Source: Solimonas flava DSM 18980 (lineage in GTDB: Bacteria; Pseudomonadota; Gammaproteobacteria; Nevskiales; Nevskiaceae). From it: a stretch of DNA of 64,000 bases. Numbering within the stretch: the first letter of the stretch is position 1; every line of letters begins with the position of its first letter. Under the pieces are notes generated by a model, which saw nothing but the letters and a program-made list of their open reading frames with translations, made no database searches and was not told the origin of the DNA. Shown piece after piece: positions 60,043-60,203 of the stretch. The stretch spans positions 1-64,000 of the forward strand of contig NZ_AUFV01000018.1 in NCBI RefSeq assembly GCF_000426685.1, given 5' to 3'. The translations under genes were made by a program, and so were the position numbers.

Positions 60043-60167
60043 AAAAAAGAAGCCCCCCGGGGTACCGGAGGGCAAAGTGCGAGAAAGGCGCATGGCCTTT
60101 CTGGAGGAGACTGATCTGACCCGGCAATGCTCCCGGCTTGCCGGGTTTTTCATTGCTGAATCATGTT
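60043..60167 (-). ncRNA. Candidate trans-acting small RNA, about 125 nt
   Basis: Minus-strand transcript predicted from a start near 60167, 7-8 nt after the promoter at 60175-60203, to the terminator. Structure in 5'-3' order: hairpin 1 with arms ACCCGGCA and TGCCGGGT (60119-60146); an unpaired segment with UCUCCUCC (60103-60110), complementary to Shine-Dalgarno AGGAGG; hairpin 2 AGAAAGGC / GCCTTTCT (60082-60102); and an intrinsic terminator with stem GCCCTCCGG / CCGGGGGGC, TACC loop and TTCTTTTTT tail (60043-60073). The only short ORFs inside lack ribosome-binding sites. Looks like an RNA that pairs with translation starts, in the manner of sX13- or cuckoo-type C/U-rich sRNAs, though I see no clear sequence relation. 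Confidence 0.65.
60119..60150 (+). terminator. Hairpin plus T run on the plus strand, antisense to the sRNA 5' end
   Basis: Arms ACCCGGCA and TGCCGGGT with a 12-nt loop, followed by TTTTTC. It would stop a plus-strand transcript of this region; the same hairpin forms stem 1 of the minus-strand sRNA. No plus-strand promoter for it was found. Confidence 0.55.
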
Positions 60168-60174
60168 GCGGTGC

Positions 60175-60203
60175 AGTATAGAGTTGACTGACGTCTAAGT
60201 CAA
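60175..60203 (-). promoter_or_regulatory. Sigma-70 promoter for the candidate sRNA, with dyad
   Basis: Minus-strand -35 TTGACT (60203-60198) and -10 TATACT (60180-60175) separated by exactly 17 bp; five of six matches each to consensus. The -35 forms one arm of a perfect dyad TTGACT-N8-AGTCAA (60184-60203) with a central GACGTC, so a regulator may bind there. Best promoter in the window. Confidence 0.78.

Follow-up and report, generated by a model that had tools for sequence, protein, structure and literature searches.

MmgR of Sinorhizobium meliloti (alpha-r8, RF00519) has features in common with the RNA described here: both are short, leave a CU-rich segment unpaired and end in an intrinsic terminator. 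MmgR is tied to PHB storage: PhaR (AniA) represses it through a PhaR site in its promoter, EMSA of PhaR have included an mmgR promoter fragment, PHB titrates PhaR, and MmgR lowers phasins (PMC8401924, PMC12542648). Published PhaR sites read CTGCNNNGCAG in R. sphaeroides and YGCRNYGCR in S. meliloti (PMC12542648). The double-hairpin or 'toxic' RF02278 sRNAs of Burkholderia (ncS03, ncS05, NcS27 and ncS62) and S17 of Bordetella target the ribosome-binding sites (RBS) of genes for carbon and amino-acid use; NcS27 acts on phenylalanine, tyrosine and carbohydrate use, and S17, which is higher in the Bvg+ mode, has had its RBS pairing supported by compensatory mutations, and the papers cited here describe no PhaR control (PMC5688073, PMC10987360, PMC11722255). 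Among the gammaproteobacteria, sX13 of Xanthomonas is a C-rich sRNA whose targets are start regions rich in G; the available part of its description gives three stems with apical C-rich loops, a position near polA and a restriction to Xanthomonadaceae, and reports no PhaR operator (PMC3771888). The siblings NgncR_162/163 of Neisseria, compared here by description, are duplicated metabolic sRNAs whose action on mRNAs for uptake and catabolism is mostly negative, and the accessible portion of that source names no PhaR link (PMC9973317).

The DNA analysed here (the window, 64,000 nucleotides of Solimonas flava) carries on its minus strand what is, judged by comparative sequence, a real and previously undescribed small regulatory RNA, spread across a whole bacterial order. 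A sequence-only reading of the window had proposed a TTGACT-17-TATACT promoter, two hairpins flanking an unpaired UCUCCUCC, and a terminator, and all of these are present on that strand. The -35 element TTGACT (60198..60203) and the -10 element TATACT (60175..60180; 10/12 consensus matches) are separated by a 17 bp spacer; nearly all operator-bearing homologues have a TTGACA-like element at 17 or 18 bp, and TATA never varies in the 48 copies that were picked for the motif. Promoter, fold and conservation together predict a transcript of ~125 nt (60043..60168), its start placed near 60167, where the sequence downstream of TATACT reads GCACCGCAACAT, and its end in the U-run. The RNA opens with a 5' hairpin (hairpin 1, 60117..60163), followed by the stretch AGUCUCCUCC with the unpaired anti-Shine-Dalgarno segment UCUCCUCC (60103..60110), the proposed target-binding site. 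Hairpin 2 (60082..60102), AGAAAGGC-CATGC-GCCTTTCT (arms also given as AGAAAGGC/GCCUUUCU), is 100% paired in 56 sequences, and the single-stranded linker after it, CGCACTTT (60074..60081; also given as CGCACUUU), is a possible second contact. An intrinsic terminator with a U-rich tail (60043..60073) closes the gene, with a 9-bp GC-rich stem at 60073-60052 and U6 at 60048-60043.

The folded window RNA reaches -51.8 kcal/mol (z = -4.2; 0/200 shuffles equally good), UCUCCUCC is unpaired in the MFE and centroid structures alike, and ten homologues fold similarly, with z from -2.0 to -5.0. By sequence alone, the promoter/terminator layout is only moderately above chance: a consensus scan of 4 kb gave one promoter-like site vs 0.5 expected, and the number of terminators in the same 4 kb was no higher than the chance expectation. 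Conservation is what establishes the gene as real. On the plus strand, hairpin 1 is itself terminator-like (60132-60150, a stem and then T5), as it is in 31/48 operator-bearing homologues, and in this orientation it perhaps shields the sRNA promoter from convergent transcription (of the antiporter gene here, of pnp at the phaR locus).

BLASTN matches were found in 57/61 related genomes (own genome counted), many of them running from the -35 box to the U-run, and a pattern scan of named genomes returned matches in Solimonas, Sinimarinibacterium, Nevskia, Hydrocarboniphaga, Stagnimonas, Stenotrophobium, Panacagrimonas, Polycyclovorans and relatives, a range that puts the window in Nevskiales. 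We collected 59 distinct copies and aligned 56 distinct 3' cores, nearly all from Nevskiales. Poor conservation of the stems and of UCUCCUCC in relatives had been named beforehand as what would speak against an sRNA; the core, roughly 70 nt, proved strongly conserved, with UCUCCUCC identical in 56/56 copies. Neither UCUCCUCCAG nor the GCA of the linker varies, and the hairpin 2 stem is for the most part invariant too. The 5' hairpin is retained in most copies despite a complete change of sequence. Hairpin 2 contains one compensatory pair, A-U to G-C, among the 56 sequences; covariation support is thin since only one of eight pairs varies, the rest of the stem being too invariant to be judged in this way. 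Tandem copies exist, each with its own promoter, and a covariance model built from the core (R1) detected further members beyond Nevskiales, some with phaR upstream. Among the papers listed by literature searches on Solimonas sRNAs and on sRNAs adjoining phaR, none described the family. In the best explanation, the window copy belongs to a multicopy family of sRNAs of roughly 105-145 nt that probably act in trans.

Rfam assigned no family at gathering threshold to the window or to 20 homologous loci. The RF00519 (suhB) score was 19.1 bits, under its threshold of 41 (E = 0.16), and the RF02278 score was 16.4 bits, under its threshold of 50 (E = 1), with 0/20 homologous loci passing. The RF02278 and S17 layout, UCUCCUCC with a small hairpin and a terminator, does recur here, as does the presence of several copies per genome, but the hairpin sequence is unrelated and layout alone does not amount to membership. 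The best Rfam match, ncS54 of Burkholderia cenocepacia (RF02871), has a similar CAGUCUC start, hairpin and terminator, and stayed at 27.6 bits, below its threshold of 43 (E = 0.0003); we made no use of homology through RF02871, which is unproven, the class-wide search having returned mostly the ordinary terminators of genes, as at L101, where the match follows a PQQ-dehydrogenase gene. The sequence-only reading had likened the RNA to sX13. That parallel holds for the mechanism, but does not extend to the apical C-rich loops, the polA locus or the Xanthomonadaceae restriction given in the available part of the sX13 account (PMC3771888): the CU-rich segment here lies between hairpins, and the neighbours are an antiporter gene and DUF1993 in the window and phaR at other loci. 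On comparative grounds, the RNA family is a separate one, resembling MmgR in its putative control and NcS27 and S17 in anatomy and likely targets.

Two features absent from the sequence-only reading, a PhaR-type operator and linkage to phaR, suggest what the RNA is for. The operator, CTGCANYGCAACA, lies over -10/+1 in 48/59 copies (motif TATAnTGCAnYGCAACA; CTGCACCGCAACAT at 60163..60176, minus strand, in the window), and 48/59 is the fair figure because those 48 copies were picked for the motif. Within this motif-selected set, conservation of the operator is on a par with that of the -10 element, with 1.9 bits per column for GCAnYGCAACA, 1.8 for the -10 and 1.6 for the -35, and with 0.2 bits in the columns upstream of the promoter and 0.45 just after the operator; 39/48 copies have the complete TTGACA hexamer with a spacing of 17 or 18 bp. 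The sequence CTGCANNGCA matches both published PhaR sites, CTGCNNNGCAG and YGCRNYGCR (PMC12542648). In an independent scan, the full palindrome TGTTGCANTGCAACA was found in 17/61 genomes vs 1 for a control pattern, and in nine genomes (L143-L146, L155-L159) proteins judged by eye from their sequences to be phasin-like start 49 to 220 nt downstream of it, while in other places the palindromic form is rare; the phasin-like protein of this genome matches Pfam Phasin_2 just below the cut-off (E = 1.7e-4). The phaR leader of this genome also has a CTGCATCGCAGCA box just upstream of phaR. A looser operator scan, allowing one mismatch, was discarded as noisy (195 vs 85 control hits). A PhaR-type operator shared with phasin, the mark of a PhaR regulon member, is present in the promoter, and its position over -10/+1 fits repression. 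Such putative control would parallel that of MmgR.

Three paralogues in the Hydrocarboniphaga group (L028:1178-1245 +, L077:508-574 - and L086:4680-4748 -) keep the core without a clean -10 operator, which suggests that some copies are regulated differently. The palindrome TGTTGCATTGCAACA also occurs, in three genomes, upstream of a small protein of ~68-84 aa (MEILPFVSFILWATGLL...; L038 from 1593 +, L150, L151), which is a new candidate for the PhaR regulon.

A TBLASTN search over all loci placed phaR 143-627 nt upstream of the sRNA, on the same strand, for 50/59 copies, and the phaR locus sometimes carries two sRNA copies in tandem. For its part, mmgR is not known to be linked to phaR. The second copy of this genome, on contig C5, is directly downstream of a gene identified as phaR by TIGR01848 (142 bits, E = 8e-42). 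The window copy is a dispersed paralogue that has kept the operator with no phaR nearby; its neighbours, a K+/H+ antiporter gene and DUF1993, showed no functional link to the sRNA, and the antiporter protein also adjoins the sRNA in genomes assigned to S. variicoloris, S. soli, S. terrae and S. marina. Two other copies (L012 and L023) adjoin a pnp-like gene with no phaR within the locus, which suggests that phaR was lost or moved while sRNA and operator stayed.

This genome has a third locus, at C4:392666, recognized by a weak R1 match of 26 bits. There UCUCCUCCAG is combined with another hairpin (AGAUCCC/GGGGUCU) and a terminator, and the palindrome TTGTTGCGACGCAGCAA lies upstream. The locus belongs to a second anti-Shine-Dalgarno family (L170:1420-1575, corresponding to G000:C4:392585-392740 +), which has the form TCTCCTCCAGATCCC-loop-GGGRTCT followed by a terminator, is preceded at L170:1420-1575 by the PhaR-like palindrome TTGTTGCGACGCARCAA, and is retained by five related genomes, one of which has it three times in tandem (L374, L377, L379). 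Since the C4 locus shares the operator type, the three anti-Shine-Dalgarno RNA genes of this genome appear to be under one type of operator.

As the sequence-only reading had it, the RNA is best understood as an sRNA that acts in trans through an exposed anti-Shine-Dalgarno segment, given the constancy of UCUCCUCC and the frequency of leaders that could pair with it: the 8-nt complement GGAGGAGA lies 2-12 nt before an ATG at 34 places in this genome vs 3 for the reversed pattern. Products of genes with GGAGGAGA leaders include a sugar transporter, phenol hydroxylase subunits, homogentisate dioxygenase, phenylalanine hydroxylase, an AlkB-like hydroxylase (our naming from the sequence; FA_desaturase in Pfam), a flavin monooxygenase, a PQQ alcohol dehydrogenase, outer-membrane proteins of the DcaP and alginate-export types, and DUF1302 and DUF1329 proteins. 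In four genomes whose products were named by eye, TonB-receptor-like and DUF1302 proteins were in every GGAGGAGA list, and Rieske-type oxygenases and acyl-CoA dehydrogenases in two of the four each. Uptake and catabolic genes made up 20/29 of the GGAGGAGA leaders vs 5/23 of AAGGAGA leaders (Fisher p = 0.0009; 13 vs 3 on a strict count, p = 0.017), an enrichment that is suggestive only, because the classification was non-blind, the numbers are small and the control Shine-Dalgarno sequence is partly complementary; strong Shine-Dalgarno sequences match any anti-Shine-Dalgarno RNA. With that proviso, the predicted targets may be mostly genes of carbon uptake and catabolism.

Comparative sequence establishes the gene and its structure, along with the operator sequence and the linkage to phaR. 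From these we propose, with moderate confidence, a PhaR-repressed anti-Shine-Dalgarno sRNA that would be released when PHA granules titrate PhaR and would lower carbon acquisition. When stored PHA is low, PhaR would bind CTGCANYGCAACA over -10/+1 and hold the promoter off, as the conserved sites suggest. Forming granules would titrate PhaR away, so that the sRNA would rise together with phasin. The anatomy suggests that UCUCCUCC, left unpaired between two hairpins, would then pair with GGAGGAGA-type RBS and block initiation. The main targets are predicted to be outer-membrane uptake proteins and enzymes for the breakdown of alkanes, aromatics and amino acids, and the RNA would thus act as a storage-satiety feedback on carbon acquisition, probably telling the cell to stop carbon uptake and breakdown as PHA stores fill.

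PhaR control could also serve a different end, the homeostasis of the PHA granules themselves, with phasin or depolymerase mRNAs as the main targets in place of carbon uptake. The linkage to phaR and the operator common to phasin would suit such a role, for which MmgR, repressed by PhaR and lowering phasins, is the precedent (PMC8401924, PMC12542648). The leaders, however, point away from it: that of the phasin gene in this genome offers only GGAG in place of GGAGGAGA, with weak predicted pairing at the Shine-Dalgarno sequence, the GGAGGAGA leaders examined in four genomes include none of phasins, and the leaders predicted to pair well are catabolic ones. Phasin mRNA as the main target is thus unsupported, and we consider granule homeostasis unlikely to be the main role. 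A real anti-Shine-Dalgarno sRNA might instead answer to another regulator or be constitutive, the palindrome and the phaR neighbourhood being incidental, as four members without a clear operator and the distance of the window copy from phaR could suggest; this seems less likely still, given an operator conserved like the -10 element in 48/59 copies, a palindrome that marks phasin genes, and 50/59 copies downstream of phaR.

It is very improbable that the element is untranscribed or acts in cis, as the 5' leader of a neighbour, a terminator, an attenuator or a phaR 3'UTR without independent function. It has a conserved promoter and a terminator of its own, it exists in the window and at the antiporter locus, where phaR is absent, and its tandem copies are each promoter-bearing, all of which tell against a cis role, even though the region 3' of phaR holds most of the copies and, in 31/48, hairpin 1 looks like a terminator when read on the opposite strand. 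We give almost no credence to a chance arrangement or a small protein gene, to which near-chance promoter and terminator counts in the region and the existence of overlapping ORFs might otherwise lend some colour: order-wide conservation bounded by promoter and terminator excludes chance, and coding is argued against by three copies (L014, L023, L027) in which an indel of one base in the conserved loop breaks any frame, and by the lack of a conserved frame in the 5' part.

Should the proposed PhaR-repressed feedback on carbon acquisition be true, PHA storage would be joined to post-transcriptional control of carbon acquisition by one defined module, and PhaR-repressed CU-rich sRNAs would exist outside the alphaproteobacteria; the RNA having no detectable relationship to MmgR, this would suggest a repeated origin. 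More tentatively, at somewhat short of even odds, phaR and the downstream sRNA may form an ancient two-gene module in Nevskiales and some other gammaproteobacteria, in which a granule-binding repressor senses stored carbon and anti-Shine-Dalgarno sRNAs of two families, tandem or dispersed, relay a 'stores are full' message to the mRNAs of uptake and catabolism. These bacteria include hydrocarbon and aromatic degraders carrying PHA genes, which would give the module relevance to bioremediation and to the production of bioplastics.

A separate sRNA-like element, CTCCTCCATCCTCCTTTGGTGG with a terminator, was seen in various gammaproteobacteria (L102, L105, L115-L142). It was found by the RF02278 class search, in which it gave sub-threshold matches in 63/274 class genomes, and was kept apart from the phaR-linked family. 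At L102 and L105 the next gene downstream, close by, encodes a protein that begins MKTFSA (probably rplM), and the element looks like a double-hairpin sRNA family broader than Rfam holds.
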